Shown here in pieces: positions 40,977 through 64,000 of a stretch of 64,000 nucleotides of DNA. The notes under the pieces were generated by a model, which was not told where the DNA came from, searched no databases, and saw only the letters and a program-made list of their open reading frames with translations. This DNA comes from Undaria pinnatifida (taxonomy: Eukaryota; Sar; Phaeophyceae; Laminariales; Alariaceae). Numbering within the stretch: the stretch's first letter is position 1; each line of letters begins with the position of its first letter. The position numbers and the translations under genes were made by a program. The stretch is taken from NCBI GenBank assembly GCA_012845835.1, contig JABAKD010000009.1, positions 10,042,785-10,106,784 on the forward strand, read 5' to 3'.

Positions 40977-41348
40977 GTCAGCATTGCAGGTATCATGCGA
41001 GTATCCTACATGTGTCAGGCATTAGATCCGGCGCATATGGATGGCGTTCGGCTCGATGTTCGCTTGTGTTTGCTGTCTTGCTTGCCGTCCTGTCGGGACT
41101 GTCTTCAGTAAATAATAATTGCGCCGCATTTTTTTGAAACCGTCGTTTCCTTACTAAATCCTAGTGGTATTTTTTTCATCTTGGAAGATTCCGACGAGCG
41201 TATTTCGTGTAGCATACCAGGTAAGCGATAATGGCATAGTCTACACACAGAATACGGAACCTACACCCCCACGTCCATAAAGCCTCAGGGGAGAGAGTGC
41301 TCAGAGGCTGGGCGGGCGAGCCCGTTCAGAGCTCCGAGTAAAGCACCC
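40977..41348. promoter_or_regulatory. Likely shared (bidirectional) promoter region
   Basis: 372 bp separate the divergent start codons of the MGNAAS exon (minus) and the NACHT gene (plus). The region has an AT-richer middle (AATAATAATTGCG near 41115) but no TATA box or other element that I would name. The promoter role is inferred from the layout only. Confidence 0.35.
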
Positions 41349-44300
41349 ATGTCGTCGACGACACGGCCTCCTTCGCGCCATGTGTGCATAGGGGACATGG
41401 AAGAGGAGCTTCATAAAGCTTTTGCGATGGCAAGGTAAGATCCCGCCGCCGCCGCGGCGTCATGAATGAGATCGTCCGCAAAAAGAGGGTCTTCTACGTA
41501 CGTAGGACGTCCTCCCTTAAGCACGTTGAAATCTGATTTCTACGCAGGGTATCCTCCCTTTTGCTGAAATGTGTTTGCTTGTCCCCTGCGTGCCGTATGA
41601 TATGTCCTATTGCTTTCCACCCTCCCGACAGAGTACCGGGAGGGACTGACTTCGTGTACGAGCGAGATCACGACGCGTTCGCTAGGCTCGACGAATTTTG
41701 CAACTGGAACCAGGTACGAGTAGAAGAACGACACCATGCATGATGCATGCGACGCAACGGTGCTGGCCTGGTGGTCATTCGTACAAATTTTCTGTTGCTA
41801 GCAACTTCGCCTCTACGGCCCAAAAGAAGTGCACCGTACTGCTGGAGTGCATCGCACCGCTGTAGTCGCCGAGTCACACGCTGATGATGAAGGTTATACC
41901 AGGTATGCACGCAGCTGGTTCAGACTTTCTCTCGGTCTGGTCGTTCGCATACCATGCAGTAGGATATTCTTGGTAGTTGGTGGTATTCCTATCAATAAAG
42001 TAGACTACAAGTATTGGTGGGCTTTAACCTTGACCAGACGTGCTGCTGTGTTGTGTCTTCTTGTACCACGTCGCCGTGGATAACACAGATGTCGGAACCA
42101 GCAGCCCCTTTGATCGTATCTGGACCCTCTGGCTCCGGGAAGAGCGCGCTCCTCGCCAACTGGCTTCTACATTTCCGGCGACGCTTGGAGGAGCGGCCCA
42201 AGCACGGGGGGCCTTTGGAAGAGCCCTTCATTTTTACTCACGCTGTCGGGTAAGTATTTGCTATGGCATCCGCCTCATGGCCGCCGCACCTCGAACGTAT
42301 TTCCACCACTTTGTCTGTGCTGCTGTGAGCGCCGCTGAACGGTCTACGCCCAAAATCAAATTGTTGTATATACGAGTACGTAACATACAATACGTTCTCG
42401 CTTAAAGTACAGCACTTTGCCGATATCGTATTACCCGTCATGCAGAGAGGGGGGTTTCGACCATTCAATCGGTCGAACTCACAGATCACGTATCGCGTTG
42501 GAATATCGTTTTATGAATCGTACGACAATGATGACATGATGGCGGTAACTAGGTGTAATTAATCAGTACCCGGTAATATGAGATTTGGAAGAGGGGGTTT
42601 GAAGGTGATATCGAAGTTTTGCCACTTAATCGAAAATAATCGTGTTACACCTTGCCTCGAATTGTGTTGCTTAATGCCTTGCAAGAAAAACTTGCTGGTC
42701 AGGAGCACGGGATGTTAAACACCCAACGGTCTCATGAGGCATCTCATCTCATCTCTAAGGACAATGTTATATTGTTTGCCGGCGTCATGAATGTGCGGGA
42801 TAATGCATATATAGGTGTACTCGACACGGAGTCGACGTCGATCAGTTGCTGTGGAGGCTTCTGGCAGACGTCAAACAGCGGTTCGACTTAGCTCGAAACG
42901 TCCCCAACGAGGCAGAACGCCTTAGCTGGGAGTTACCACGATTCCTCGATTTGGCCGCAAGGAAAGGACGCCTAGTCATCGTCATCGACGGGCTCCATCG
43001 TCTCCAAGACAAAAACGGTGACAACAAACAAACGAGGGGCAGGAGGGCGGATAACCCCTTCTTAGAACTGCATGCACAAATGGTGAAAAACTACTTGAAA
43101 CCACTGTGGGACATGTTTGCTACTATGGCTACTGTAGTATTAAAATGTTTCAAGTGTTGTGCCCTTTCCAAGATGACCGTCACGCGTTCCGACACAATGC
43201 ACGCTTACCAGGTCCTTTTGACATAGTCCCGCGTTGGAACTTTGGTGGTTTGGTGACGGTAGTGATCCCACAACCACGACCAGCAACCAGGCTAAAAAAA
43301 ATGGAGGCGTCGTCACGTTCCACGAAACAGACGGTTTTACCGTAAGAAAGATTTTCTTGTAGGTCGGAGCAACCCGCAGTCCGCGCATTCTACAAAGGAA
43401 TTCCTCTTGTTGTAACCCCCCAGTTTGCGGGCGATATCTGCCGCTCGATTGGCACTGTAATGCGATAACGGCATCGACACCCTTACGCGTCGACGCCAAT
43501 ACGCTCCAACGTTACCGCTTGACGCTGTATTGCAGGGGCCGAGACCGGCCTTCAGTGGCTTCCGCTCCGAGTTCCTGGGAACGTCCGGCTTATCGTCACC
43601 GCCACGCACCCGGACCCAAACTACCTGCAGCTTCACGAGCAGAAAATCCGACAGCACATGATGAACCCTCACCATGCACTAGCGTCTCAATCATCCAGGG
43701 CTAGTAGCTGCGACGGGGGCGAGACAGACACGACATACTTTGACTTCATGGGGGGGAAAAATCCAGACATTGTCGACACCAAGGGAGATGGCGAGGCCGA
43801 ATACGAGAGCAGCCATCGACGGCGGAAGGTTAGATTGTTGAAACGAGCATTCCCGGCAATGATGGGCTAGCCGTTGGCATGCTTCGCTTTGTCCGAGCGC
43901 TTCAAAGTGCCAGCAGCGGATGTCGCTGCTGAGGGCTCCACAATAGACACAGCTCATCAGAAGCAACAATCACATGCTCTATAAACGATGACGGATGTCA
44001 TACGGTAGTCTCGGTTTTCATGCGGCGGTATAATTGCCATACTTCGCGTTCGGATTGCGACTAGAAGGTGATCGTAGCTGTGTCCACGAGACCTCTGTTC
44101 AAAAGCGGCTGGGGTGTGATAGGAGCAACCGGTCGCCCCGGTGGCGTATCAGGTTATCCTCGAGCCTGGTACAGGCCAGTTTCATGAGTTCGAGTCCCCT
44201 CGAGTGCATGCTCGTATAAATTCGTAGGGACTTTTGACTGTGCACAAATTGATTTGTGGAAAGCGCGAGAGCATGAGTTAGCAACACTCGATAAAAAATC

Positions 44301-46802
44301 GACGAGCAGTGGGATTGCTGAACCCTATGCGCGATAAAAATTGAAGGCAAGAACCGGGGGGGGGAGAAGGGACGACACCTGTGATCTCATGGCTTGTGCA
44401 GGAGCTGGAAAGTAGAAGTGTGAAAAAAAAAGACCACAATGCGTGTTTTTTCAGTGATACGTCGTAGTTACTGTGTACAATCCCCACGCACTACTGGCGA
44501 AATAGCAGACGAGAGTGAGCACACACCAAACTCTCGCAGTACTTACTTGCTGATCCTATCGACGGAACACGCACCAGCTTAAGCGTTCAATGTTACCAAC
44601 CGTGCCGCTGCCGAGAGCGTTGGTCGTTCACCCGCTCCAACGGCCGCAAAACCACGCACCCTCCACCGGCATACACGTGCGTTTTCTCTCCTGGAAAAAC
44701 AGGTGCTTATGGAACTAAGTCGACGGAAGTGGCCAACGTTGGACATCGGGCCACTGGAAACCTGGCGAAAACGAGACATTGTGGAGGCGTTCCTTAGGCG
44801 GTCGCTCGTGGGTCGGAGCACCGGGGAACCAACCTCCTTGGCGAATGAGAGCTCGGGCACGCAACGTCAGCAGCAGCAGCAGCAGGGGTCGGCGACCTTC
44901 CTGACGGGAGTAGATGTGACGGATGACCGAGGCATCTCCTTTGCGGCTGACTCGGACGCTGGCAGGGCGAGCTTGGGTGTTGGTGGGCTGGTTCTGTTCC
45001 CTTCGATGATCGAGAGCATCCTCTTGAGGTGGGGGGGTTATAGGTGGTGGTGCTGTGCATGGGTAGAAGGTGAATGCCGCAACCGGATGGTCCCGAAAGT
45101 AACTGGTATCGATATTGGCTCGAGCCCCACGTTACGCATACGAACCCCCGGCTTTCAAAGTTCTGGAGTTTTGCGAAACATCGGTGACCAGCGTTCCCTG
45201 CCCTCATCACAATGCGTTCCCGTTGGAGCGAAGTTGTCGCACAGAAAACCACATGACACGCCTGGTTGGCTGAGAGGCGCCGCGTTGACGAGTTTCGTTT
45301 ACTGATGTCGAAAACATGCCAGGTATCCGGTTAACATCGTAGCGTTTGGCCTGGCCGATCCATTCACCTCACGCCTACTGCACGCAAGGGGTGCAACCAT
45401 CTCCTAACCACCCCCAACCCCGCGTTCGTCCTACCGTATGCCTCAGCGATGCTACCAGCTCCGTGCTCTATCTGCGCACGCTGCTTCGAGCTCTCGACTG
45501 GGCGGCGGTGAACCAGTACGATGTACGAGTGCTGCTGGAGAAAATGCTCACGACAGCAAAAACCGTCGGGGCCCTGTATAACGTGTTTTTCGATAGGTGA
45601 ACGGTGCACAAGCTGCTGTCGTCGCAGGAGCTGTTTCTGCCGGCCCTTGCCGCTCATTGCATGACCGTGCGGGCGTATAAAATACCGCGTAATAGCTAAA
45701 GAGGAGAGCGAAGTCATCGATTTTTTTGCGGGCACTCCCTGCAGGTGCTCTATCCGTGCTTACCGCCACGATGCGCTATTGCCAGGTTCTACAGGGGGGT
45801 CCTTTTCCCGGCGAAGCACAAAAATCCATTCAAAGCATCGAGCCGATAGAACGTGCCGCGTACGCCTGACCTAAGCCCCCCCCCACTCACCGCCCCCTCG
45901 TCGCGTTCCTAATCGCTCGTGCGCTTTTTGGCAGCATTGAATCCGGCAACCATCCTACGGAGGCTTCTGTGCAGAGCGCCCAAGAGGCCAGCGAGGCGGA
46001 TGGCGGAGGTCTAGCGCTACAGGACGCCATCGACGCCCTAGTCAACACAGGACCCGACGATGCAAAAAATGGTGTCGCTGAGTCTCAGGGTGTACGCGAC
46101 CAAAAGCAGGATGACGATGTTTCCCTGGGGAGGGCAGACCAAGACGCTGATACAGGCGCCTGTGCCTCTGGGTCGATGGTGGATCGAAATTTTACGCTTG
46201 CCGCTGAGTCGGTGGTGGATGAAAATGTTACGTTCGCCTGTGGAGACAAAGGCAGAGACAGGAAGAAGGAACAGCAAGGATTACAGAACCAAGAGGGGGG
46301 CGGGGGGGGCGAGGGGGACGAGGGGGGCGGAAGGGAACAGGACAAAGAAGGGGGTGAGGGAAGCGGGAAGGAGGACGAGGACCTCGGCGACGACAACGCG
46401 TACAGCGAAGACAACTACGACGACGAGTTTGACGATGACGAGTTTGACGCGGACGAAGAAGAAAACGACACGGCAGAAGCAGAAAATCAGCCCGTGAACA
46501 CGATCGAGGCCGGCACGGCTTCGAGTGAGACTCCGATCGGGGAAGAGGCGTCAACTAAAGACGCTAAGGGAAAGGAGAACGGTGCTGCCGGCGGAGGTGA
46601 TACACCGCAGGGTGGCAGTGGAACTGCCGTAAACGGAAAAATGGATGAGACCTTGTCTCACTCAGCCACGGCCAGTTTTGATCCAAGCCTTGAGGAAACT
46701 AACGACCCCTGCGTGCCATCGACCCTTTGCGGGGACGTAGGTAAATCATCTGGAAAATATGGAATCGAAGATGTTCCTGTATACTTGTCCGGAGGTAGCG
46801 AG
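41349..46802 (+). CDS. NACHT ATPase gene, part 1: nucleotide-binding core and acidic insertion
   Basis: Residues are counted from the ATG at 41349. [17 protein letters not shown] (about 34-50) is the family lead-in. The P-loop GPSGSGKS is at 68-75, followed by [38 protein letters not shown] (to 124) is the strand-two and helix region, and the Walker B motif [11 protein letters not shown] is at 163-173. The sensor-like strand is [14 protein letters not shown]. The exon at 44703-45028 has [13 protein letters not shown], then a serine-rich part with a short glutamine run. The exon at 45447-45596 has [14 protein letters not shown]. The exon at 45935-46802 then inserts about 285 mostly acidic residues ([17 protein letters not shown], Gly/Glu runs) where relatives have only a few residues before the winged helix. 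A possible exon at 41802-41902 was left out because direct splicing keeps phase and family spacing. Confidence 0.82.
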
Positions 46803-49800
46803 GTGAGAGATCAATTTTTTTTTTACAAAAATGTCCTAGCTTCCGACACCATCAGAATCAGACTGCCCTGTTTTCGGCTGTGTCTGCCGTGCCTCGTTCA
46901 GCGCAAGAATTTGTTCTTCGTCGCAGGAGGCGGTTTCTGCCTGGTAAACGCCTCATTTCGTGTGACATCGAAAGAAGGGCGGGATCGCCACCCTGTCCCG
47001 TGGACTGTCCCCGCACTCGCCGAATGCGCGTGCATTGTTCCTATCTGCAGCTCCGCGTTGCAGGAACCACCGCCTGGATATGTTTCTCGGCCTTGATTTG
47101 CTCGTGGTCCGTCGTCACACACGAAAAAGACCCACGGCGTTCTTGTGTAGAACGGGGAACGTTTAATCAGCGGCACCCCGAGTCATCCCACGGCCGGCCG
47201 GGGTGCAGCAGATTCTAGAAATTTTCTGAGCTCCTATGTATCGTGAGGAGCTCAAATGTCTCACCTCGCCCAACACAAAACGCCGGAAGAATTCGTTCGA
47301 GCAAACCCGGCCATATTTTTATGCGCTAGTAAAAAAAATCATACCCACCGATGGTCCCACCGTTGAGGAGCTCAAGCGGTCAGGTATACCTTACTTTGGC
47401 TACACAAAATTGCAAACCCTACCACCGTGGGACGACTCCCCCGGAACTCTCTCGGCCAAGCGGTCAGGTATACCTTACGTTGGCTAAACAAAATTGCAAC
47501 CCCTACTACCGTGGGACGGCTCCCCCGGAACTCTCTCGGCCAAGCGGTCAGGTATACCTTATTTTGGTAAACAAAATTGCAACCCCTACCACCGTGGGAC
47601 GGCTTCCCCGGAACTCTCTCGGCCAAGCGGTCAGGTATACCTTATTTTGGCTAAACAAAATTGCAACCCCTACCACCGCGGGACGGCTTCCCCGGAACTC
47701 TCTCGGCCAAGCGGTCAGATATACCTTATTTTGGCTAAACAAATTGCAACCCCCACCACCGTGGGACGGCTTCCCCGGAACTCTCTCGGCCAAGCGGTCA
47801 GGTATACCTTATTTTGGCTAAACAAATTGCAACCCCTACCACCGCGGGACGGCTTCCCCGGAACTCTCTCGGCCAAGCGGTCAGGTATACCTTATTTTGG
47901 CTAAACAAATTGCAACCCCTACCACCGTGGGACGGCTTCCCCGAAACTCTTTCGGCCAAGCGGTCAGGTGTACCTTATTTTGGCTAAACAAAATTGCAAC
48001 CCCTACTACCGTGGGACGACTCCCCCGGAACTCTTTCGGCCAAGCGGTCAGGTATACCTTATTTTGGATAATCAAAATTGCAAACCCTACCACCGTGGGA
48101 CGACTCTCCCTCGGAACTCTCTCGGCCAAGCGGTCAGGTATGACTTATTTTGGCTAAACAAAATTGCAAACCCTACCACCGTGGGACGACTCCCCCGAAA
48201 CTCTCTCGGCCAAGCGGTCAGGTATACCTTATTTTGGCTAAACAAAATTGCAACCCCTACCACCGTGAGACGACCCTCCCGCAACTCTCTCGGCCAAGCG
48301 GTCAGGTATACCTTATTTTGGCTTGAAAAAATTGCAAACCCTACCACCGTGGGACGACTCCCCCGGAATTCTCTCGGCCAAGCGGTCAGGTATACCTTAT
48401 TTTGGCTACACAAAATTGCAAACCCTACCACCGTGGGACGGCTCCCCCGGAACTCTCTCGGCCAAGCGGTCAGGTATACCTTATTTTGGCTAAACAAAAT
48501 TGTAACCCCTACTACCGTGGAACGGCCCCCCCGGAACTCTCTCGGCCTGCTGTGTGTGTCGTGACAACCTTAAAGCACACCCAGTCCGCGGTCGATGGAG
48601 TCATGGGTGAGACGCGCTAAAACGTGCGATCCTTAAGCCTAGTTCCCGCTCCAACTTTTCTCTGACCCGCCCGGCTTTTGCTGTGTAGGTGGAAGGCTTT
48701 GGAGTAACGATCGGTCGAGCGTTTGCTCTCCTCCACGTCGTTCGCCACGGCCTGCGGTCCCAGGAGTTGTGGACGCTGCTCGCCGCTTTGAAGGCTTCGA
48801 CATCAGCCCAAGAGAAGGTGGGGTAGGTTGGCTGCCGACGGTCAACCTCTCGCGATGTGAAAGGGTTGACACGGCGGTGTCGGCATATTTTTGGCCTATG
48901 CAAAAATGAGGCGTTAGATCGCTGAATAACATATTGTACACTGAACAAGAACTGGCTAAATAGTACTAATACTTTGATGCCAGAAGCGGGAGGTGGGAAA
49001 GCAAGAGTGTAGCTAGGAAATGATACATATATATGTTGACCCTGATAGCTACACTGTAGTTGTAAGGGGAGTCGCCGACCTATATCCTTAATGAGGACAC
49101 ACAACTCGTAATGCGCGCGATCGGAGTATCACACACAGCTTGCAAAGATGAGTTTCGACGAAATCTTCGATCTCACAGCTGGAGGAGTGTATTTTCATTT
49201 TTTATGATATATTCAGTGACTTTATCGATATAGCTTCTGCAGCGTAGGGAAAACCCCAATCATTAGTCTGACAGACTTGTAACGGACGCACAGTGGTTTG
49301 CTACAGGTGCTGCCATTGTTCAGCACCAGCCTGTTGCAGGGTGGGGGGCAAGATCCGAACGAAAATGAACAACCGCAGTGAACGTCGAACGGTTTGTGTC
49401 CTGGTTGATCGTTGACGCTCGCCCTGCAGCTTTCTACGGTTCATACACATGCAACAGTATGCAGCAGCAGAGCGGGTGCATTTCCAGCGTCGCTTGCTTC
49501 CTGGCCGCTGTAAACATGTTGTAGGGCGCTCATGCTTGTGTTTTAGACCGTACCGTGGAACCGAATGACAGGGCGTTTGTTCACTACATCATATCACGGT
49601 ACGGGAGACGTGAACTCCGAGGCTGAAAGCGGAGAACAGAGGCGTATTCGCACAAACAAACTATATCCAATATGTGACACTTAGAGTGTAGCACGGTTCT
49701 TCATTAAAATGGCCTTGTTGTCGGACGGAGCCACAGGCCGCCCCTCCTTCAACACACTCAACTACCCAACCACCCATCCATCCATCAATCCATCCATCCA

Positions 49801-52800
49801 TCCATCCATCCATCCATCCATCCATCCATCCATCCATCCATCCATCCATCCATCCATCCATCCATTCTATCATCCATACATCCATACATCGATCCATCCT
49901 CCCACCCACCCCAAACAATTGTGCAAGGCGGAAGGCACGGAAGGTGAAGCCGAATCGCTGCTCTTACGCAAGCTCCTGAAGAATCAAAACAGGTTGATTG
50001 ACAGCATTCGGCTCATGGACGAGAATCGGGACGGTGTCATCTCTACCGACGAATTCCGCTCGGCGATTGTGGCCATGGATGTCGGTCTTACCGAGCGACA
50101 AGTGGAGAAGCTTATTCGGTCGATCGACGTCGACAAGGACGGAGAGCTGGACATGCAGGTATAAATCATAAAACAACAGAAGGTCAACACACTGGAGTTG
50201 ATGTATATTAAAACTTCAATGGAAAAATGGACGAGCATAGGGTGGGACGACGGAACCCTCTGAGCGATGAAAAAGGAAGACACGTACCGGGGGGTATGCA
50301 TAGGGGGAGGGGGGTGACACCTGTGACCACGGCTTGTCTAGAAGCGGAAAATAAAAAGTGAGATTTAAAACAGAATATGTGGCGGTGATGGAAATAGGTA
50401 ACGTCAATCTTTGAGGGAGATGATATCCAGCCATTGCGCGACGGCGCGGTTTTCCGATTTGAGTTGTATCACGAGATGATATGGACCAGCCAACGTTAAA
50501 CCGCGCGGTTTCCAGAATAAGCGGGCGTCCGCACCATTGTTTTCCTGACTTGAGCTACCCGGAGCGCTACCGCTCTGATATGGAGCCTTGGTGTGCCACC
50601 GGCGGGCTAACATGGGGTTGAGTGATGGAATGGTGACGAAAACCAAACACGATTCTCGATACGGATACCGATAGGCAGTGAAATACTCGCACAGACAGGG
50701 TCGTTGCATGAAAACTGGAACGGACGCGGATCCCACAAGAAAACCGCTTCTCAAAAATATTGGCTTTATTGGACTGCAGCATGCCTGGTCGAGCTGTGCG
50801 TCAAAAACTAAACTAAAACCGCAGATGGAACCATGGCCACTTGTAAGCGTGGCTGAGAAACAATTTACGCGAAATAGGTAAAAAAAAAAACACCAATATT
50901 GGAAAATGGTTTTGCACCCGCGATTAGGAAATGATCGAGAGGTTCTCAAACACTGCGAGGAAGATGAAGCGTGGAAATGGCAGTGATCGACGACACAGCC
51001 AGGTGAGAGGGACTAGTGCCGCGGCTTGCCGGCGTTGGGTTATGTGATAGGCGCTTGCCATTTAGGGCCTCGCGTGTTCTGGTCGGGGTCAACACGGCGC
51101 TCTACTGCACCAGCAGATACATCCGCCGAGCCACAATTTTACCCCTCGGCGATTTTCAACTCCGACGGTGTAATATCGTGTTTTCGTTTACCTTTGGAGC
51201 GTACCAGGGCATACCCATTGCACGGACAGAGCAGAGGTGGTGGGCTACCAGCGGGTAGATAAATGAATCATGGGTATGCTATTGCTTCCCCCTTCGAGTT
51301 TCTACGAGGAGTGCACTCGGTGGAAATAAGGCGACTAAATAGGCCGAATCTTGCAAAGATGGGTATCGACCATTAAATTAATCGATTTCACATACAATAC
51401 GTCGTATGGCGTATTTAAAAAAATAGTTTCATAAAGTAGGCCGAAATATATCCCGTCATCCCGATATCCCGCTCCTGTACGACGTAGCCAACCCCAGCCA
51501 ATCCATTTTTGGAACATTCTACTATCAATATAATCAACCATCTTCAGAACCGTATCGTGTCTAAGCACACTATCATTATTAGTACTTTTCGCCGCATTAA
51601 TCGTGGATCGGCTTGTTCGACCTCTATTTTGTAACCGTATTTTATCTTAGCACACAATCGACAGTACTTTTCGCCGCATTATGATGTTCGGCTCGTTCTG
51701 CCTCTCTTTTGTGGCAAGTCGTTGCTGGGTTGAGCTTTTCATGGGCGTAAGAAGGAACGAGGATTTTTCAATGATACTTACCGAGGATCATAACCTTTAC
51801 AATGATGCGAATCGAGCCTCTGACTCTGTGATAACAGCTGCAGAGGTGGCACCGAAGTGTCGGTGAAGATCGCTTGTGATGGAGAAGAAACAGACTAGAT
51901 AGTTTGTTGGAAAAGTGTCGCTTATGGCTGCAAGATGAAAATCAAAGAAGAGAAAGAAGAAAAAGAAGAAGAAAAACAAGAAGAAGAAGAAGAAGAAGAA
52001 GAAGAAGAAGAAGAAGAAGAAGAAGAAGAAGAAGAAGAAGAAGAAGAAAGAAAACGAAAAAGAAGAAGAGAGGGATGAACAGAGGGATGAAGATAGGAGG
52101 AAAGGACAAGTAAGGAGTGATCGAGGTGGGACTGACCCTCACCTGATCGATACGGAACAACGCCCATGCCACGGGCAGATGTACTCTACGGGTTGTCGTA
52201 CTTGCCGACAGACCGTCCTGTAGTAAAGCTCCTTGCAATATTCCCTTCTGTGCTCCCTGATACCTACCGTGGTACGCTTGTTACAACTTGAACATGCAAT
52301 ACACCGGCGAGAAGTAACAAACCGAATTTTTCCGCATCTTGTATTTCCCCGCATCTAGAATATGAGGCTCTAGTGTACTCAGGGTAGTGACTACGAATCA
52401 ACCAGATACAGGTAGAGTGCAGAGTTCATGTTCCAAGAAAACAAACCCTTAAAGGCTACATGATCACATCACGTAGGCCCAGTCCTACGGGCGCACACAG
52501 TCACGCCCCTTCCGAAGAAAGCAGGTCGCCGTGCTGTGGCCTATATGTGGAGTCCCCGCTGACCTGACCTCGCACGTCTTCTCGGCGGACGTTGTTGATC
52601 ACCAGAGCACCGGGAAAAGCAGCATTGAGTCTTCCGGGATCTGGACCGAATTCACAGAAGATGTGAGCGCCGGGGATCGCCTCTGAAGCTTGAAATGTTC
52701 AGATACCCAGGATTCGTATCTATCTGAGGCTTGGTCGGCTTGGTTACTCAAATACCCAAAACGAAATCAAGCGTAGCGCTCATTTTGACGGCATCACCCC

Positions 52801-55800
52801 GAGGCATTTTTTGCCTTCTTCGAGTGCGTGGATGTCTGCCTTGAAGGTAGGCCGTGGTCAAAGTAAAATGTTCTATTAATAGCAGAACAAAAAAAAACGC
52901 TATTTATTTATGCAATTTGCTTGTCCGGTCCAAAACACCGTGGCAGAAGAAAACACACTCACCAGAAGAGGGTAACTATGAGTGCTTCTACAATAGCCCC
53001 TCTCAATTTTGGGGCTATTTCCTTAACGAAAAACAGCCAAAAATCGATTTTTGAGCCTATACATCTATGCATTAGTACAACTGTGCGACTTGCTCCCTGC
53101 AATTTTTGATTTGGTCTCGAACCGGCGTCTTGGCGCTCAGATCTTCGTTTTTTCTAGGGGGGGGGCTATCGTAGAAGCACTCTTATGTGGCGATGACTTG
53201 AACGCTCCGCATTGCAATGCATATACTGTCGGTTTTGGTGGCATGCGACCAACGAAAACGAGCGGTGAAACACTGTAGTAGCTGTCTGAAAGACGAAAAG
53301 ACCGCGCAACGCTGCGACGGGTATCGACTGACCTTGCCTAATCATAAGGTTTGTATGACACCCCGTCTTGCTCACCCACGTCGCGTGCCTTCTTAGGATA
53401 CGGGTAGCACCAGCATTCTCGCGGACGGTGTGCGGGCGTCCTTAAAGTCGGCGCTGACCGTGCTGGGCGTCAGCCACGACGGAGTCAAGCACAACGGCGA
53501 AGAGCACAATATATTTGTGCTGGGGCTTGATGCCGAAGACCTCCGGGAAGTGGTACGACTGAAAAATGAAAAAAATAGTGACCACCGAATACGGTTACAC
53601 CTTGTGATGTAACTCCCCAACGCCTCCCGCCTTTGTAAACATCGAAAAAGCTTGCTTGAGAACATTACGCCAAGCGTGGAGCTACCACGTGGTGTTTCTT
53701 GTTGTGTTCGATACAACAGTTATCCTCAGCGCAGTCGTTATTGCGCTTCTTCAAACGCAACTAAAGGGCAACGCCGTTTCGACTTGCCCTGGCTTCTGCA
53801 CACATCAGACAAGAATAGAATCGCACGGCGGCCATCTCGATCTAGCTGCTAACAGCACCCCCCTTCTCCCCTCGGTGCCGCCTTTGACGGAACGTCATGG
53901 CCTCGATTTTACCCCAATCACAATTATTTCCACCTCCCACTGTTGAGGCAGCTTCTTCGTCTTGGCATTCATTGCCCCCGGCCACACGTGTCTCGACGCA
54001 TCACGTTTTTGAGAGCGGCTTGTTCGTCGTCCCCAATCCTAGAAAAAAAATGGAGTTATCGCTTCTGAGATATATTCTTCCTCTCGGCGTCATCCCCATT
54101 CAAGGTATTTCTACGTGCTATTGTTTTGAGATGATGTGCTCGTCTTGGTATTACCCCCCAATCAAAAAGGCACAGCAAAGCACCACAATCTAGGCGGTTT
54201 CTTCGTCTTGGCGTTACACCCTCCCCCAATCAAAAAGGAGAAGATAAGCACCACACCTTGGGTAATCCGTTTTCGTCTCGGCGTTTACCCCGCAACCTAA
54301 AAAAGGTATTTCGACGGTACGTGGCATCGGCAAGCGCTTGGCACTCCCGTCTGGTTCGGTTTTTCCAGGCGCAGGCTCCAAGCCCCCGAAGATGCGAAGA
54401 GCTGCCATGGCACCTGAACAAATGCTATAGATGGCACCCGCTCAAGAACTCCTTGGTCGATCTCAAGACTTTCGAGGCAAGTCCCATCCTCCCGCTGTCG
54501 AATTTGTTTTTGCCCACACCGCTGTGTCTCTTTTCTTTTTTTTTTGAGGTTGGTCCTTACAATAGTCCTCTTACCCCTATAGCAAAACGCACGCTACGGT
54601 AGAGAGGCGTGCACGTAAAAAAAAAATGAGCTCTCCTCGCGCTTGAGGAGCTCTGCCTTTTTTTTCTCTTTTCTTAGGAAAAGGAAACGCAAGAGTTCAA
54701 ACCCTATGGATGTACCGCCCTACGATGGGCGAGGCTGCGCGCATATGCTTCGAAGCATCTTGCAAAAAGCACCACAAAGGTATCCCCCACACTTGCTACC
54801 GTACAAGGTGCGCCCATTTTTTATTTCCGAGGCTCCTAACCAATCGAGGGGTCGTTTGAGGGGAAAAAAATGTTTTCTAGACAAAAAGAAATGAAAGAAT
54901 GCAACCCCGAGAGTGACCAATTCTCCTCCTGTGGCCTTAAGGTATAAAAAAAAAAACAGACGGTAGGTACTACTGTACTGTAGTTATTGCAAAACAAGAA
55001 TGGCGTATTTTTTTCCGACGGTTTTTTGGGTTAATTAACCCCGTCATTTAGGAACGAAACCTGTTTAGCCAACGAAAAAAAAAAAAATGCTACCTCTATC
55101 ATAGCAAGCGTCTCCACGGCGAGGTTTCGGTATGCAGCCCCTCGGTTGAAGGAAGGCCTGCCTCCCAGAGCAGCCAGGGAAAGAAAAAAAAAAAAAAAAA
55201 TGGCCGAAAAAATATCGCCACATCCTATCGTAGGAGGAGGCGTTGAAAAAAAAAAAAAAAAAAAAAACAATGACAGCGAGCGGCTCTGGGGAGTCGTCCC
55301 GCGGTATGTGTTGCACTTTTTCGATCATTGCCCACTCAAGACAGCGAGCGGCCCGGCAAGCGTGCCACGGCGGGGGTTCTGGTTGTTAGTGTAAAGGTTT
55401 GTGAGCTAGCTGCTCCTCCGAGTGTAGAGCTGTCGGTCGGTACGATGCTGCTGACGAGCCTGTTGTTGATGTTTTTCGGGTGGACTGCGGTAGCGGCGCT
55501 CGTTACAGAAACGTTGGTCGGGTTTTGCGCGGATCGGATGTCTTCGAAGCCGTGTTTTTTGTTGCCGGGTGGTGTATTGACGCATGCTAATATAAAAGTA
55601 GCACGTTTTTGGCGAAAATGATTTTCTGAATGACGGGGCTCCTTAACCCAAAATCGTCGGAAACGGACCATTTTTTTTTTCATGGTTATCGTTATGTACC
55701 GAGTACCGTTGGATTTTTCATCCAGGTAGCACTTTTTATTTCTCCAAAACACTTTTTGGGAGAGGTCTTAAGCTCCCAAAATCGAGGGGTAGTATTAGAA

Positions 55801-58800
55801 AACAAGTGGTTCACCTCTATCGTAGCACGCGTTTATCGAGCTCCGCGTTTTGGGAGCTCGGAACCTTCCTCTGCTGCACCCCCAGCGTGGGATAGACTCC
55901 GGGGCAGGGGGTTCGGTATCGGGCCCACCAACTCTGGGTCGGCCAAACTAACGGCACAGTTTTGACAACGATTTTATTTTTGCCAAAGCATGTCAGTGGA
56001 GCAACGGCTAACGCTCCACGCGTCGGACAGATCATCACCGATCGATCCCTCAACTTGATTATCTAGATCTATTTCCAACAAGGAGAAGGAGGAGGAGAAT
56101 CTGTGTGATCTAGCTCGTGTTGCCGGGGTGGAAGCCATGCGATCTGCGTGATCTATCTACCACGTGCTCTCGGGGTAGGATCTGTACTCCACCTATGGCA
56201 GATCCTGCACAACGTATCATAACGGCAGCTATAGCATGAACTGTGCGGATGATCTAGGTGATCTAGATTATCTGGACGATCTAGATCGTAACCTGTCGGA
56301 GGTGTGCAAGGTTCGGGCCGCGCTTGCCTTTGCTTTTAAGCGCCGCATATACGGAGAACGACGACAACACCCTTACGTTGCTTTTTAATATATTTTGCCA
56401 ATTTTTTTTGCCCCGCGCTCAGACCATGTGGACGACGACCCAGCTAAGGAGGGAGTTGATGGATTATTGGAAGCTCCTGACCGAGGGTCCCCTCCACGCC
56501 AGCGAGGAAGCGGCGGCAGCCGATCTCAAGAACGACAGCAAAACAAAACTTGTAAGGTATGCATGGGCTCCCAAAGGCTTGGCTCGCCACGCGTTCCGGG
56601 CGACAGTCGTAACGAAGCTCGTTCGGCTTTGCGTCGTATGTATACGGCGGCCGATCTCTCAAGAACAACAGCGAATCAAATTGGTAAGGCGTGGGCTCTC
56701 TCGCTTTTTCTTCGCTAGCTAGGTGTTCCGGGCGACAGCGTTCGTCTTCCGCAACACGCTTAGATAGTTGCAGCAGAGGTCCCCTCAGTACGGCGATGGT
56801 GTGGCAGAGCAATACCACCGCCTTATAGGAAGCCGCCTCGCACATTCCAGGTTATGAGTGCAATAGTGCGATTCCCCAGTCGCGCCAAGGGATTATGACC
56901 GCCTTGTATCGGGATACCGCCTAAAGCCTCAATGTTCATTCCAGGCTATGAGTGCAATTCCCCAGTCGCGTCAAGTGATCCTGACCGCCTTGTGTCGGCA
57001 TACCGCCTTATATGGGGATACCGCCTTATCGGGGAAAGCCTCAATGTTCATTCCAGGTTATGGGTGCAATTCCCCAGTCGCGCCAAGTGATTATGACCAC
57101 CTTCTATCGGAATATCGCCTTATATGGGGATACCGCCTTATATGGGGATACCGCCTTGTCAGGGGAAGCCGCCTTATTCATTCCAGGCTGTGAGCGCAAT
57201 CCCCCAGTCGCGCCAAGCGGTTCTGACCGCCTTGTATCGGGATACCGCCTTAAGTATATGAGGATACCGCCTTATCGGGGGAAGTCGCCTTATTCATTCC
57301 AAGCTATGAGCGCAATTCCCCAGTCGCGCCAAGTATTTACGACCGCCTTGTATCGGGATACCGCCTTATATAGGGATACCGACTTATCGGGGGAAGCCGC
57401 CTTATTCATTCCAGGTTATGAGTGCAATTCCCCAGCCGTGCCAAGCGATTCTGACCGCCTTGTGTCGGGATACCGCCTTATATGGGGAGACCGCCTTATC
57501 GGGGGAAGCCGCCTTATTCATTCCAGGCCATGAGGGCAGTTCCCCAGTCGCGCCAAGCGATTTTGAACACCTATATATATCGGGATGCCGACTTATATAG
57601 GGATACCGCCTTGTGTGGGGGACCCCTACTGTACTATGATGCCTGCCGTCTCCGTCGAGCGAGGAAACTAACTAACCCTAACCCTAACCCTAACCCTAAC
57701 TCTTGATGCCTTGAATTACCATGAACTAAAATTTGCTTTCACCACGCCCCCGCGGTAGTCGTGGGATGCGTTCTGCGACAAAAACGTGGCATAATTTTTC
57801 TCGGAAAAGGGTTTTTTAATGACGGGGTGTTGCTCTTAACTCAAAAACGTCGGAGAGTTCGTGCTTCTTTTTTTTTGTTTTGCATGATTTTATGAAAATA
57901 TATCCAGGCGGTGGGTTTTCATACATAGGTTGGCTGTGTTTCATCGCCCCCAAATCAGGTTAGGAGCCTCAGAAAGCTAAAGGTGCACCTCTGCCTCTAC
58001 CTCGAAAATGAAAGATCCATTATCTATTTTAGTCGTGTTTACATATATATATACTACGGACTATGCCGTACTTGTGAATGCTACCCTCCCCGTGTGCGTC
58101 GGCAGGCATTTGTCAGCTCGAATGGAGCACGTCGCCCTTCTGCAGCAAATAACCAACCGACCGACCGACCAATCGACCGACCGCCTGTCTGATGGATCAA
58201 CCCGTCGGCTGTGTATGTGTACTTGTCAGTGTGATGATGCAGGAGTCGTGCAATCGAGGGGCGGGAGGGGCGTCCGTGAGCGCGGCTGACATCCTCGCCG
58301 TCGGCAGCAACGGCAACGTGGCAAGCTCTGGCAAGGTAATTGCGCGGCAACGCGGAAGCAATTTTTTAACGACACCGATACTACATCATGGTAGTGCGTT
58401 TGATCTAGACACGTGGTACTTAACTGATTCGCGCAGGGCTTCCGGGCGGTGTAAGGAAGCAAGCAGCATAGCCTGTCCTCGACTAACTTGAGCAGTAAGG
58501 GGGGAACGGGACACTAACGAAAATGAGACTTCAGACGCTAAATATTTTTTTCACGCGGGGAAAAAACGTCGAGTTCAGCGTCGGCCACATGAAGCAATCC
58601 AAGCTGCTGCTGTGGCAGAGATGTGTTGGAACGGCAACAGCCATCCCGCGGTGGGGGTGCAGCGCAAGTTTCTAAGAATTTTCTGAGCCTCCTAACAATG
58701 AGGAAGAAGGAGCTCAATTCAAAAAAAAACTGACCCAACCCAACATGACGTCGAAGGCGTTCGTTCGCGCAGCTCGACCAACGCCTCTGAACCCTGTGGC

Positions 58801-60134
58801 CATTGCCGGGTGGTCATTACCAGGTGGTCATTACCAGGTGGTCATTACCAGGTGGTCATTACCAGGTGGCCATTGCCGGGTGGTCATTACCAGGTGGTCA
58901 TTACCAGGTGGTCATTGCCAGGTGGTCATTACCAGGTGGTCATTACCAGGTGGTCATTACCAGGTAGTCATTAATGGAACAATCGTGTTCCCGTAAAAGT
59001 TACCGTTCTAACCCATGGCGGTTCCGCGCGTGAAGAGCTCGACCGGTCAGAAACATTTGCGCCCTAAAAAATGTGAACCCTACACCGTGTGATGACTTCC
59101 GCAACAACGCAGGAATCTGGGAGGCGAATCATCGTGAGGCATGACGATGTATACTCGGAACGCCTCCAGTGTTTTTCCCGTAGATCCTCTTGAGTAGATC
59201 GCGACTGGTTCTGCGATAGCCCCCCCTCAAAAACCGGCAGTTTTTTTTCTAACAGACGTTTGATGGCACTCACTGCTAGACACGAGGAAGGGTGCTATGA
59301 AAAAAGCATCCTCAAACATTTTCGTGTCCGCAAAGAGTCTATCGATCGATGACGTCGGGATGGCAAGGGGCGCCACCGTATTTCAGGAGGAGATACGGCC
59401 GGGAGCTGGTTTCAAAACCGGCGATTTCGTTAAAGAAAAGTTGGGGGGGGGGGGGGCTACCGCAGAACGTCTCTCGCGCTCGTCGCTTTTCGGTGGGTAT
59501 CACTGGGTTACAAAAATAGTTTCAACGGGAGTGAAATTGATACCATAAAACAGAAAAACTTGTGTCCAGTAGAAAGACCAGCGGATGAGAAAATGCCTGA
59601 AAGACAAGTGTTTGCCGATATCGGCGTGCTAGACGATCCCAATTCGATGCGAGCCAATGGGAGGGAAGAAAAGGGCTGACGTAGTCTCGCGGTAAAAAAA
59701 ACGAAGGCGCGCACCGTAGTAGGAAAGGGGGGAAGAAGAGGCTGCTTAGTGACCCCTGATCTGAGTTACATCTAGGGAGGGAAAAATTAATGGAGAAGGA
59801 AACAGTGCGACGAAAATAGATGGGGTGAGCAAAACAAAATGGGAAAATATCCCAGTGAAAAGGTCAGCACCCCCGATGAATCCGCGCGCAAGTCGGGTTT
59901 AGAAAGCTCAAAACGAAAGAACCCGTTCACCGCGCTTGCTTCTCCTCGCTTGGATCGACCGCGCTCGGTTAACAAACAGGTGGCACCCTTCGATCTCGTT
60001 TTCGAGTACAACCACGCCGTTGAGGGGTGGCAGGCCTCGAGTCGCCCGACAATATCGCGGCTGGGGGAGATGGTACACACTATCGGGGACTTCATGCGCG
60101 AGATGAGCCAGCTCGTGCAGAAGGAATACGCGAG
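41349..60134 (+). CDS. Nephrocystin-3-like NACHT STAND ATPase with EF-hand pair and acidic insertion
   Basis: Plus-strand exons that join in phase: 41349-41434, 41632-41713, 42089-42249, 42815-43017, 43536-43828, 44703-45028, 45447-45596, 45935-46802, 48689-48817, 49928-50158, 50928-51002 and 53397-53552. The C-terminal set is 54375-54476, 56423-56551, 58243-58335 and 59863 to about 60134; one join, between 53552 and 54375, is unresolved. Up to 53552 they give about 920 residues. The core is a P-loop NTPase of the NACHT/STAND class like nephrocystin-3 and algal NACHT-TPR proteins, which act as nucleotide-driven switches or scaffolds. The usual TPR repeats would be expected past the last exon and were not seen. 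The gene spans more than 18 kb because its introns are packed with repeats. The start at 41349 is the first in-frame ATG before a good donor. Confidence 0.8.
44301..44430 (+). repeat. Dispersed intronic repeat, copy 1 (partner 50230-50370)
   Basis: GACGAGCA, AACCCT-TG-GCGAT-AAAA, GACACCTGTGA and GGCTTGT followed by GGAAA-TA-AAGTG occur in the same order here and at 50230-50370. Both lie in introns of the NACHT gene. The pair is diverged. Confidence 0.55.
47184..48545 (+). repeat. Dispersed module A carrying an 84-bp minisatellite (about 14 units)
   Basis: The module starts near CATCCCACGG, then GGTGCAGCAGATTCTAGAAA, TTTTCTGAGCTCCT and an AGGAGCTC that can pair with GAGCTCCT. After GAGGAGCTCAAGCGGTCAGG it becomes a tandem array (about 47373-48545) with period 83-85 bp. 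Each unit contains CGGCCAAGCGGTCAGGTATA, TTGCAA(A/C)CCCTACCACCG and GACGACTCCCCCGGAACTCT. Modules B (58641-59110) and C (61404-61720) share the flanks but not this array. The long open frames on both strands here come from the period being nearly a multiple of three and are not genes. It fills the intron before exon 48689. Confidence 0.85.
48689..53552 (+). CDS. NACHT ATPase gene, part 2: winged-helix region interrupted by two EF-hands
   Basis: The exon at 48689-48817 reads [20 protein letters not shown], the winged-helix start of NACHT/NPHP3-like proteins. The exon at 49928-50158 carries two EF-hand loops, [12 protein letters not shown] and [11 protein letters not shown]. The twelfth residue (Glu) of the second is supplied by the first codon of the next exon (50928-51002), which supports that splice. 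Both loops have acidic or oxygen ligands at positions 1, 3, 5, 9 and 12 and Gly at 6. A basic segment, [16 protein letters not shown], follows. The exon at 53397-53552 then resumes the family pattern with [12 protein letters not shown], the part that precedes RYL in relatives. All these exons are phase 0 at both ends, so the EF-hand exons could have entered as a cassette. Confidence 0.72.
49036..49205 (-). repeat. Dispersed repeat, copy 2 (inverted partner of 8370-8552)
   Basis: The reverse complement matches 8370-8552 over about 170 bp (GTGAGATCGAAGATTTCGTC, CTACAGTGTAGCTATCAGGG). It lies in the intron between exons 48817 and 49928 of the NACHT gene. Confidence 0.75.
49787..49866. repeat. 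(ATCC)n microsatellite
   Basis: About 19 uninterrupted ATCC units with impure units on both sides, ending 61 bases before the acceptor of the EF-hand exon. Frames across it (repeated HPSI or WMDG) are artefacts of the repeat. Confidence 0.95.
50230..50370 (+). repeat. Dispersed intronic repeat, copy 2 (partner 44301-44430)
   Basis: Same ordered phrases as the copy at 44301-44430, including GACACCTGTGA and GGCTTGT. It lies between the EF-hand exon and the next exon. Confidence 0.55.
51003..51977. other. Intron sequence, no exon seen
   Basis: Part of the long intron between 51002 and 53397 of the NACHT gene. A relative of the 8370-8552 repeat lies near 51345-51400 in inverted orientation (CTTGCAAAGATGGGTATCGA). 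No coding exon could be supported between 51003 and 53396 apart from the repeats listed. Confidence 0.5.
51978..52048. repeat. (GAA)n trinucleotide repeat
   Basis: About 23 uninterrupted AAG/GAA units inside a longer purine-only tract (about 51936-52085), in an intron of the NACHT gene. Such tracts can form triplexes and slow transcription. The Lys/Arg- or Ser-rich frames here are not genes. Confidence 0.95.
52980..53182. mobile_element. Small inverted-repeat element (MITE-like), divergent copy 4
   Basis: Ends are inverse copies: GAGTGCTTCTAC-ATAGCCCC at the left and GGGGCTAT-GTAGAAGCACTC at the right, the same TTCTACGATAGCCCC core as the other three copies. The interior differs apart from a CCTTAACGAAAAA stretch, so it is either a subfamily or an internally rearranged copy. 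It sits in the intron just before the exon at 53397. Confidence 0.7.
54375..60134 (+). CDS. NACHT ATPase gene, part 3: helical region after the winged helix
   Basis: The exon at 54375-54476 (acceptor possibly at 54368 instead) reads [19 protein letters not shown] and LVDLKTF, the hallmark segment that follows the winged helix in NPHP3-like proteins. It ends at GAG|GCAAGT, a textbook GC donor. The exon at 56423-56551 reads [12 protein letters not shown], the next family landmark. The exon at 58243-58335 is a glycine/serine spacer. The exon starting at 59863 reads [12 protein letters not shown], then [16 protein letters not shown], the helix pair that normally precedes the TPR array, and probably ends at a second GC donor at 60134. 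A further small exon around 53729 (starting RSRYCASSN) probably precedes this part, but its end could not be fixed. Confidence 0.7.
55018..55105 (+). repeat. Dispersed repeat R2, copy
   Basis: Contains GGGTTAATTAACCCCGTCAT-TAGGAACG and then GCTACCTCTATCATAGCA, matching the R2 core and end. It lies in the intron between exons 54476 and 56423. The segment 54480-56420 also holds several long A- or T-runs and no exon that I can support. Confidence 0.55.
55570..55690 (-). repeat. Dispersed repeat R2, inverted copy
   Basis: The reverse complement reads GTTTCCGACGATTTTGGGTT, AAGGAGCCCCGTCATTCAGA and AAATCATTTTCGCCAAAAAC in the order seen at 36390-36490. It is the best-preserved inverted copy. Confidence 0.65.
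56515..56740 (+). repeat. Tandem duplication of an exon-intron junction (about 133 bp)
   Basis: GCCGATCTCAAGAACGACAG through CTTGTAAGG-T-GCATGGGCTC at 56518-56575 recurs as GCCGATCTCTCAAGAACAAC through TTGGTAAGGCGTGGGCTC at 56651-56705, and GTTCCGGGCGACAG occurs at about 56590 and 56724. The end of exon 56423-56551 with its donor is thus present twice in tandem. The second donor lies in intron sequence. Confidence 0.75.
56838..57625 (+). repeat. Nested minisatellite, about 7 units of 107-130 bp
   Basis: Each unit holds CATTCCAGG-TATGAG-GCAAT, CCCCAGTCGCGCCAAG and one to three copies of GGGATACCGCCTTATAT. Unit length varies because the inner element varies in number, so this is a repeat within a repeat. 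It lies in the intron between exons 56551 and 58243 of the NACHT gene. The open frames across it are artefacts of the period. Confidence 0.85.
57676..57700. repeat. Interstitial telomere-type repeat (CCCTAA)
   Basis: Just over four perfect CCCTAA units, about 50 bp after the end of the nested minisatellite. This is the telomere repeat of many plants' relatives, animals and stramenopiles in its TTAGGG form. It may be a scar of break repair or telomerase action, or chance capture. Confidence 0.85.
57800..57880 (-). repeat. Dispersed repeat R2, inverted copy (diverged)
   Basis: Contains TTAATGACGGGGTGTTGCTC, TTAACTCAAAAACGTCGG, the diverged reverse complement of the R2 core. Confidence 0.5.
58641..59110 (+). 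repeat. Dispersed module B carrying a 15-bp minisatellite (about 12 units)
   Basis: It shares with module A the start CATCCCGCGG, GGGTGCAGC, TTTCTAAGAATTTTCTGAG, AGGAGCTC and TTCGTTCG, and at its far end GAAGAGCTCGACCGGTCAGA and AATGTGAACCCTACACCGTG. Between them sits a different array: about 12 units of GGTCATTACCAGGTG (58801-58973). It lies in the intron between exons 58335 and 59863. Confidence 0.8.
59209..59467. mobile_element. Small inverted-repeat element (MITE-like), copy 3
   Basis: It begins TTCTGCGATAGCCCCCC and ends CTACCGCAGAA, with the same interior as copies 1 and 2 (CACGAGGAAGG-TGCTATGAA, ACGGCCGGGAGCTGGTTTCA, TTCGTTAAAGAAAAGTTGGG). It is 259 bp. It lies in the NACHT gene intron next to module B. 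Confidence 0.78.
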
Positions 60135-60660
60135 GCAAGCGGGGTCGGGCGGGGGGCAAGATTGCTTCGCCTTCTCATGGCGGAAAAAAAGAAAAAAAGG
60201 AAGAAAGACTCGCCATCGGCGACTTCTTGTAGCCGTTTTTTCTTGAATATGCTGCGCTCTCGCGTGTAATTGTGAGCAAATGCTCTAGCGGAAGGCCCAG
60301 GACTAGGCAAACGTGCGCCCACTTGACATGTTTGGCACTCGATTTCATGTCACGAGGTTAAACAAGAAGAAGAAAAAAACGTTTTCATCATGTACAGGAC
60401 TAACAACACGCTCCAGACGTCCCTTGTGCGACCCTCGTCGTCGCTCCGAAAACAGTCTACGCTCCACGTTTCCTCGATAACTCCTTTGCTTTCTTTGGCG
60501 GCAGCACCCTACTGTACACCAGGTATCATTGGACAAGTCAAACATTCCGCCGCCCCCCCAAAAAGCTGGATCTTCCTCTGACGCAACCCTCCGCTCATTC
60601 GTCTACGCTTCGTTTTTGCCCCCCCCCCCCCCTCCCCCCCTTGGTGATGCGCCCACCCAG

Positions 60661-60791
60661 CCCACCGTTTCTTCACATGCCGCTGGACTTCAAAGACTTG
60701 GAAAAAGTTGGCATCAACCGCGAGCTCGTGGCGTTGACGGAGATGGAACCTACCGCGAGTCCGGGAGAAGGGGTCGCCGAAGAGGCGAGCG
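60661..60791 (+). CDS. Candidate further exon of the NACHT gene
   Basis: After a long pyrimidine tract and the acceptor GCGCCCACCCAG, the frame that matches the phase of the proposed donor at 60134 reads PPFLHMPLDFKDLEKVG, INRELVALTEMEPTASP and GVAEEAS, up to a weak donor AGC|GTGACA. The composition is protein-like, but I do not recognise a domain, and the 3' end is uncertain. Confidence 0.35.
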
Positions 60792-60999
60792 TGACACCAA
60801 GACACGAACAACGGACAACACCCCCCCCCCCCCCCCGCGACGACAGAAGAACTCGCCGCGTTTATCAGTTCGTTTCTCTTAGACCATTGCTTGCGCATCA
60901 CAGACAGCGCACGACGTAGAAAACAAACGAAAAACAGAATTTCTGCGCGCGCGCGCCTCTACCCCGTGCGTTTGGACGTTTCTTCTTCTTTTTTTTTTC

Positions 61000-61060
61000 G
61001 AACGACGGGACTTCTTAACCCAAACCTCCGTCTTAAAAATTTTCGATTTTTTTTCTTTCG
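61000..61060 (-). repeat. Dispersed repeat R2, inverted copy (partial)
   Basis: CGAACGACGGGACTTCTTAA followed by CCCAAACCTCCGTC is a partial, diverged reverse complement of the R2 core. Confidence 0.45.
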
Positions 61061-61403
61061 CACAATGTCCGTTGCAAGCAACACCTGTCGTAGGCGTAGG
61101 CCGTGAGATTTTTTTTTCAACGGGAAGCGGTTTCGTTCTCTCCCATGGGCGAGGAGCCTCTCGGGAAAAAGCTCATGGTCGCGCTTTTGCCAGCTTTTTT
61201 GCCGTACATGCATAGCACACGCGTCTCTTTTTTTTTTTTTTCGGGAGGGGCGGCCAACGGCACCTGGCGCTCACGAGCCCGATTTCTTCACACCGAAATG
61301 TTTCCCCTCGTGAACTCGTCTATGGTTGGGGGAAAAATCGTGCCGTTACGTGTCGCAACGTCGTGTCTCCCGCCCGTCCGTCTGTTTTCTCTGCTCCTAC
61401 TGC

Positions 61404-61720
61404 CATGTCCCACGCTATGGGGGCGCAGCAGGTTCTACGAATTTTCTGAGCTCCTGCCATGAGGAGCTCGCTCGAAACTTCTCACCCGGAAACACAACCT
61501 TCGAGGAACGTTCGTTCGCGCGCAACCCAACCAAAAAGCTAGTACGCGCTACAGTCCTAACAAGATGGTATACTCGTCAGATTTATCATACACCTAACCG
61601 ATTTAGTTCCACACATGAGGAGCTCGACCGGTCCGATCGGTCAAAAGAAAAAAAAAAAAAAGTCAGCCCCAAAAAAGCTTAACCCCCACCTTGGCAGGTG
61701 GGATAACTCTGAAACGCGTT
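61404..61720 (+). repeat. Dispersed module C (no long array)
   Basis: It shares with modules A and B GCGCAGCAGGTTCTACGAAT, TTTCTGAGCTCCT and its inverse AGGAGCTC, GAACGTTCGTTCG, and later GAGGAGCTCGACCGGTCCGA. Where A and B hold tandem arrays this copy has only unique sequence and an A-run, so it may represent the unexpanded form. Confidence 0.7.
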
Positions 61721-61805
61721 CTTCAACTAACTTCAACTCCCCGTCGACCGGAAAATATCGGCCCCCACACGCATACCCTCCTGCACAAATTTATTTCGCT
61801 TTCAG

Positions 61806-61898
61806 GGGAGGAGCAAGGACGCCTTCTTGTCGAAGCCAAAGGGGGCCCCGAAGGACAAGCTTTCCCACTACCGTGTAGCCCCGTTCTACTACTTTCAG
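61806..61898 (+). CDS. Candidate exon reading GRSKDAFLSKPKG
   Basis: Acceptor TTTCGCTTTCAG and donor CAG|GTGAGA flank a 93-bp phase-0 exon encoding GRSKDAFLSKPKG, then KDKLSHYRVAPFYYFQ. The splice signals are strong and the composition is protein-like. It could follow exon 60661-60791 in the NACHT gene or belong to another gene. No family is recognised. Confidence 0.4.
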
Positions 61899-61916
61899 GT
61901 GAGACGCTGCTTATGA

Positions 61917-61975
61917 CAGTTGCCCACCCCGAAGAGGGTGGAGGACAGTTGCCCACCCCGAAGAGGGTGGAGGTC
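61917..61975. repeat. Two-copy 29-bp tandem repeat
   Basis: CAGTTGCCCACCCCGAAGAG plus GGTGGAGGA occurs twice head to tail with no difference that I can see. 61976-63240 shows no exon that I can support. It includes an AAATACA-rich simple stretch near 63075-63120. Confidence 0.9.
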
Positions 61976-63269: not shown

Positions 63270-63293
63270 CAACGTATCGGTAGCGGAAGCAAC

Positions 63294-63325
<32 letters not shown>

Positions 63326-63447: not shown

Positions 63448-63479
63448 GTAAGAAACACATAAGAGTTTGTGCGCAACAA

Positions 63480-63970: not shown

Positions 63971-64000
63971 ACCTCACTGCACGTCTTTCAGCAGCATCGC

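Follow-up and report, generated by a model that had tools for sequence, protein, structure and literature searches.

The window analysed here is a stretch of 64,000 nucleotides from contig JABAKD010000009.1 of Undaria pinnatifida, and all positions are given in its own numbering. Its plus strand holds a predicted gene, known here from the DNA sequence alone, that spans 41349-56551 in 14 exons (e1 to e14, Table 1) and 1020 codons without a stop. The predicted protein groups with the NPHP3-type NACHT STAND ATPases, and two of its exons, e10 and e11, encode a pair of EF-hands that is likely inserted where a loop leads from helix 2 to helix 3 in the winged helix. An earlier note on this DNA had described four exons (e9 to e12); the translations of these segments, read again from the DNA, match those it gave, and the predicted gene extends beyond them on both sides.

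Joined, e10 and e11 encode 102 residues with two EF-hand loops. Reading of the two 12-residue loops reveals ligands at positions 1, 3, 5, 9 and 12, a glycine at position 6 and a hydrophobic residue at position 8 in each. The joined exons match the Pfam families EF-hand_1 (E 1.3e-11) and EF-hand_7 (E 1.9e-11), both above the curated cut-offs. The two complete loops proposed in the earlier note are therefore present with every canonical ligand, as is the basic segment that it placed after them, since the tail of e11 has seven K/R and one D/E in 21 residues. The note had also described the last EF-hand ligand as split by an intron. It is the ligand set of loop 2 that is split, with the residues up to 11 on e10 and Glu-12 as the first codon of e11, whereas the codon itself is intact and the intron falls between codons. 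A full 13-residue EF-hand pattern of the PROSITE style and the part of it that covers the first nine residues were searched in the six frames of the window. The full pattern occurs once and the first-nine part twice, all at e10 and e11. In 100 simulated first-order Markov windows the mean numbers of matches were 0.07 and 0.66, respectively, and none of the 100 contained an in-frame pair 30-40 residues apart on the plus strand. The closest solved structures by sequence to the EF-hand module are EFCAB6 chains, as the sum of many weak stretches, and calmodulins. The GC content at third codon positions of e10 (0.70) is like that of the other exons (0.58-0.74). If translated, the EF-hand pair would very probably bind calcium.

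The identity of the gene as a NACHT STAND ATPase, also claimed earlier, agrees with the presence of Walker A, Walker B and sensor 1 in NACHT order and with a match to AAA_16 above the cut-off. The first 204 residues of the model without e1 (e2 to part of e5) match AAA_16 with an E of 1.2e-12 (49.1 bits, cut-off 32.6), and fall just under the cut-off for NACHT (E 1.5e-5, 25.3 bits, cut-off 26.7) and for NPHP3_N (E 3e-5, 24.7 bits, cut-off 24.8). Along the joined frame of this model, which has 992 residues, the matches follow in sequence as AAA_16 (9.1e-12), EF-hand_7 (4.7e-10) and TPR_NPHP3 (9.4e-5). Exons e9 and e12 to e14, joined on their own, match TPR_NPHP3 with an E of 9.8e-6; the match covers positions 6-68 of a profile of 239 and, at 25.6 bits, is far below the cut-off of 100. 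The profile check that the earlier note had suggested for the predicted protein is thus positive for EF-hand and AAA_16, gives NACHT below its cut-off, and finds no Pfam family for the winged helix: the joined winged-helix pieces match none even at E 10.

The relatives of the predicted protein come from a single scan of a genome collection with a query of the P-loop, Walker B and sensor, which is not a census. It returned at least 24 loci, and among the matches listed all are bacterial or archaeal by title. Against the open reading frames (ORFs) of these 24 loci, the model without the acidic and EF-hand inserts gives a best E of 1.7e-37, with one matching stretch in the nucleotide domain and another beyond the winged helix. 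Fifteen of the 24 loci supplied the 16 ORFs that were aligned, the nine with weaker or no matches being omitted, and the Walker A, Walker B and sensor-1 motifs of the model align with all 16. At a Pfam E of 0.01, NACHT is found in 16/16 of these relatives, TPR_NPHP3 and NPHP3_N in 12/16 each, and NPHP3_hel in 11/16. Plasmids searched for relatives gave no match at E 1e-3, and in viral contigs four stretches fit a pattern and none was confirmed. The sole phage match, 100 bases at 75% identity within the acidic e8, was disregarded. A PDB sequence search with the ATPase returned nothing useful, its one match having an E of 0.75. The SSTFRDM-type region at the N-terminus of the relatives was not found upstream, either by motif (30000-42000, plus strand) or by profile, and downstream of the model (56552-64000, plus strand) there is no Pfam match, TPR included.

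Profiles of the winged helix were built from the prokaryotic relatives alone, in a 16-sequence and a 47-sequence version. The latter comprises 50 relatives minus 3 that were too short, and 1458 of the 1769 ORFs in the window were scored with it. The ORF of e9 ranks first with both: the 16-sequence profile gives it an E of 0.086 (rank 1/1769), a score reached by 0/300 shuffles, and the 47-sequence profile a domain E of 0.0013. This upholds the earlier placement of the start of the winged helix at e9. The fold of the region was modelled with AlphaFold2 on a bacterial relative, locus L011, from a 16-row alignment (predicted local distance difference test 91.3, predicted TM-score 0.85). In the model, the winged helix has helices at 255-265, 272-279 and 288-297, strands at 302-305 and 308-311, and a helix at 314-324. 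A Foldseek comparison matches the model to ADP-bound APAF-1 (1z6t) with an E of 8.4e-8, a TM-score of 0.60 by query length and a root-mean-square deviation of 6.7. Other leading matches are a maltose-system protein (8bob), Avs3, CED-4, NLRC4 and plant NLRs, and AAA+ relatives such as Orc/Cdc6 are also among the best.

In this model, helix 2 of the winged helix is followed by a short loop and then by helix 3. Since e9 aligns to helices 1-2 and e12-e13 to the remainder, e10 and e11 fall in the helix 2-3 loop. The length of the loop was surveyed in an enlarged set of relatives, drawn from five genomes behind the loci and from 18/294 genomes of one phylum; 58 ORFs matched, and 50 sequences were left after 8 partial or identical ones were removed. 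The loop has 2-29 residues in the 50 relatives and is longer than 29 in none. The Undaria model has a loop of 16 residues without the EF-hand exons and of 118 with the cassette, which adds 102. The earlier claim of an EF-hand pair inside the winged-helix region fits in that the pair is in frame, on the same strand and at the expected helix 2-3 loop; its weak part is the half encoded by e12. Beyond the wing, the relatives have an HD motif, MHD-like, with His in 44/50, gaps in 3, Gln in 2 and Asn in 1. At this position the model has SHD in three alignments and Ala in the alignment to the 47-sequence profile; loss of the conserved histidine, considered as a finding, was dropped given the three alignments against one.

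The exon borders of the model were picked by eye to hold the family motifs in frame. The open frame is therefore partly by construction, and independent support comes from the profile matches. All borders have AG acceptors and GT donors, with the GC donor after e13 as the sole exception. The phase 0 joins noted earlier hold for all joins from e8/e9 through e13/e14, and the joins before these are of mixed phases. By eye, e1 resembles the linker that precedes NACHT in the relatives, with its HEAFARSR segment, and an N-terminal profile gave its ORF only an E of 4.7. The acidity of e8 includes one 60-residue stretch with 27 D/E against 1 K/R. The gene may end soon after e14 by read-through of its donor, or past the window. 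Within 56500-56690, a stretch around the end of e14 seems by eye to be repeated in part directly after it, with a second GTAAGG donor-like site in the copy. The introns also contain repeats. An 84-base minisatellite of 14 copies with 93% matches (47373-48547) lies in the intron before e9, and an inverted repeat with 24-base arms, 92% complementary (52977-53185), which might be a small mobile element, lies in the intron before e12. The introns on either side of the EF-hand exons contain CCAT (49766-49899) and AAG (51945-52069) microsatellites, of which the former ends 28 bases before the e10 acceptor; except for microsatellites, no long direct repeats flank these exons.

Table 1. Exons of the predicted gene, in window numbering.
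Exon	Encoded feature	Position	Strand	Remarks
e1	Proposed first coding exon	41349-41434	+	ATG 41349, MSSTT...HKAFAMA; opens the 1020-codon model
e2	Pre-NACHT linker (FARLDEF...)	41632-41713	+	
e3	Walker A GPSGSGKS	42089-42249	+	
e4	Walker B	42815-43017	+	ORF alone matches AAA_16, E 1.7e-5
e5	Sensor-1 strand RLIVTATHP and insert not in relatives	43536-43828	+	
e6	WPTLDIGPL and start of helical domain, Gln-rich insert	44703-45028	+	
e7	Helical domain (...GALYNVFFD)	45447-45596	+	
e8	289-residue acidic insert between helical domain and winged helix	45935-46802	+	72 D/E, 19 K/R
e9	Winged helix H1 and H2	48689-48817	+	Best-ranked ORF of the window
e10	EF-hand 1 and loop 2 to residue 11	49928-50158	+	Phase 0-0
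e11	End of EF-hand 2 (Glu-12, exiting helix), basic tail	50928-51002	+	
e12	Putative H3 and wing of the winged helix, to DLREV	53397-53552	+	Weak alone
e13	RRYV...H..L..FF...EELPWHL	54306-54476	+	GC donor; ORF matches relatives' post-winged-helix region, E 3e-12
e14	ELMDYWKLL	56423-56551	+	

The window also has ORFs of note on the minus strand. Two are retrotransposon-like, one at 3-1544 with matches to an integrase zinc-binding domain (E 3.4e-14) and an integrase core (E 2e-10), and one at 2340-3635 with a match to reverse transcriptase (E 6.6e-14). The ORF at 26718-27899 has a weak kinesin motor match (E 9.6e-6) under the curated cut-off. The ORF at 40179-40976 runs divergently to the NACHT gene, whose proposed ATG is 373 bases away, and begins with MGNAAS, a possible myristoylation start. 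No tRNA was found, and no Rfam family reached the gathering score.

The earlier note had the ATPase pattern resume at e12, which is weakly supported by the position of the exon, its frame and its run into e13: the end of e12, DLREV, continues into VFRRYV of e13, like the LRxAVxxRYL of the relatives. Joined e9-e12-e13 matches the 47-sequence profile across positions 7-93 of 93 with 22.1 bits, against 19.0 without e12. Shuffled versions of e12 score at least as high as the real exon in 10/500 cases alone (1.9 bits), 6/500 with e13 and 14/500 inside e9-e12-e13; with the 16-sequence profile the counts are 5/300 alone and 8/300 after e9. The placement of e12 is weak and rests on frame, position and continuity into e13, and it is possible that e12 is misassigned. 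The join from e11 to e13 is also in frame.

Several observations count against one gene with an EF-hand pair in its winged helix. The e12 ORF ranks only 12/1458 among the scored ORFs of the window with the 47-sequence profile, and alone it matches profile positions 6-23, the wrong part, rather than helix 3 and the wing. When the full-length model with its inserts is aligned to the profile of the relatives, the winged helix is left unaligned. Joined e9-e12-e13 scores 22.1 bits without the EF-hand module and 21.4 with it, and the profile therefore cannot choose between the module in or out. In the 992-residue model, NACHT (3.5e-4), NPHP3_N (1.1e-3) and TPR_NPHP3 are all under the curated cut-offs. 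The inserts in e5, e6 and e8 show that extra sequence is tolerated by this protein, and an insert need not be regulatory. Finally, the frame is kept whichever of e10, e11 and e12 are included, and phase 0 segments of 225-400 bases that are open and bounded by AG and GT are not rare: 48818-53396 has 16, and two other introns have 24 and 8. The frame by itself is thus no proof, and the case for the EF-hand exons is carried by their EF-hand content, position and strand.

It seems probable that the EF-hand exons are included in the mRNA. They might instead be an alternatively spliced cassette, with a main product that lacks them and a calcium-binding isoform that is minor or specific to some condition. 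The cassette is of phase 0-0, skipping from e9 to e12 is in frame and leaves a 16-residue loop that is normal for the family, and the surrounding introns (1110, 769 and 2394 bases) contain microsatellites; however, a rarely used exon would not have to preserve its loops, and here both are intact. This alternative is considered unlikely. It is more doubtful still that the exons belong to a nested gene for a small EF-hand protein, encoded on the same strand in an intron of the NACHT gene. An in-frame ATG at 49709 upstream of e10 and a stop at 51045 after e11 make a short reading with two EF-hands formally possible. Such a reading would translate the CCAT microsatellite and would still need the e10-e11 splice, and for a nested gene the phase 0 and the splice signals at the two outer ends of the cassette would be superfluous. 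Moreover, the six frames of 48818-53396 contain no Pfam family but the EF-hands at E 0.001; three weaker matches there (E 0.0021 to 0.012) overlap the AAG repeat. The preferred explanation is that the locus is one NPHP3-type NACHT STAND ATPase gene with a two-exon EF-hand cassette in the intron that interrupts the helix 2-3 loop of the winged helix, encoding a calcium-responsive switch. Its chances, slightly lowered by the match of e12 alone to a part of the profile where it does not belong, are put at about even.

STAND proteins such as APAF-1 and plant NLRs have ADP bound at rest, when the winged helix keeps them closed, and they open upon activation; the trigger of STAND ATPases is generally held to act through the C-terminal repeats. 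In the proposed switch, the resting protein would have ADP bound and the winged helix shut on the nucleotide domain. Calcium in both EF-hand loops would make the module stiffer and turn it, perhaps towards its own basic tail or towards the acidic insert of e8 next to the winged helix. Since the module ends in a basic tail and e8, directly before the winged helix, is acidic, an internal contact that depends on calcium is conceivable. The reoriented module would shift the balance between closed and open forms or recruit a partner, and the ATPase would then answer a rise in calcium besides its usual trigger. Skipping of the cassette would leave a calcium-blind switch. That calcium binding gates the ATPase in this manner can be put forward only tentatively. 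A stronger version, in which the winged helix itself is the calcium sensor and nucleotide release or assembly is calcium-dependent, beside a possibly degenerate HD lock and with splice choice turning the response on or off, seems unlikely. If true, a sensor in the switch domain would be a direct link from calcium signals to an NLR-like protein. Alternatively, the EF-hand pair could serve to bind a partner, as an integrated decoy or docking module, with calcium in a structural role and no gating of the ATPase. EF-hand domains are among the fusions of plant NLRs in the available part of one listing (PMC4759884), which is in line with a decoy. The EF-hand site here apparently lies inside the switch domain, neither terminal nor between domains, and a decoy or docking role is possible but rather improbable.

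The order of motifs in the predicted protein, beginning with Walker A and extending past the winged helix, is like that of nephrocystin-3-type NACHT proteins (Pfam NPHP3_N, NPHP3_hel and TPR_NPHP3) and their prokaryotic relatives. Unlike these, the predicted protein has an EF-hand pair and an acidic insert at the winged helix. The predicted fusion of an EF-hand to a STAND ATPase is shared with plant NLRs. In the available parts of two listings (PMC4759884, PMC10934728), EF_hand_5 occurs in NLRs of Malus domestica, Populus trichocarpa and Triticum urartu and EF-hand_7 in soybean, and a third listing of NLR fusions (PMC8832786) has garbled columns. The plant proteins are of the NB-ARC type rather than NACHT/NPHP3, and the listings, as far as available, are silent on the position of the EF-hand in the protein. 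A calcium response of CED-4 was proposed through two regions like EF-hands (PMC3358320). As described in the accessible text, those regions have only "similarities" to EF-hands, whereas the loops of the predicted protein meet the full consensus and the Pfam cut-offs. In a paper that names both NACHT and EF-hand, its available portion assigns them to different families. A literature search, with most subscription papers outside its reach, found no description of a NACHT or STAND protein that has an EF-hand within its winged helix.

Brown algal candidate immune receptors offer a further parallel. According to the accessible parts of the reports, most brown algal nucleotide-binding proteins have C-terminal TPRs (PMC7145615), and brown algal ROCO receptors undergo exon shuffling and alternative splicing (PMC11378527). 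A 2012 study of exon shuffling in brown algal receptors and a 2023 study of NB-ARC-TPR proteins are cited in the sections available of PMC10197012 and PMC11378527. Like these NB-ARC-TPR and ROCO candidate immune receptors, as far as those sections describe them, the predicted gene has exons of one symmetric phase, here those after the e8/e9 join. Unlike the ROCO genes, in which the same sections have 72-base LRR exons shuffled in phase 2, the putative cassette here is an EF-hand pair in phase 0, in the switch domain. EF-hand fusions to plant NLRs are known already; what would be new in Undaria is an EF-hand pair within the winged helix of a STAND protein.

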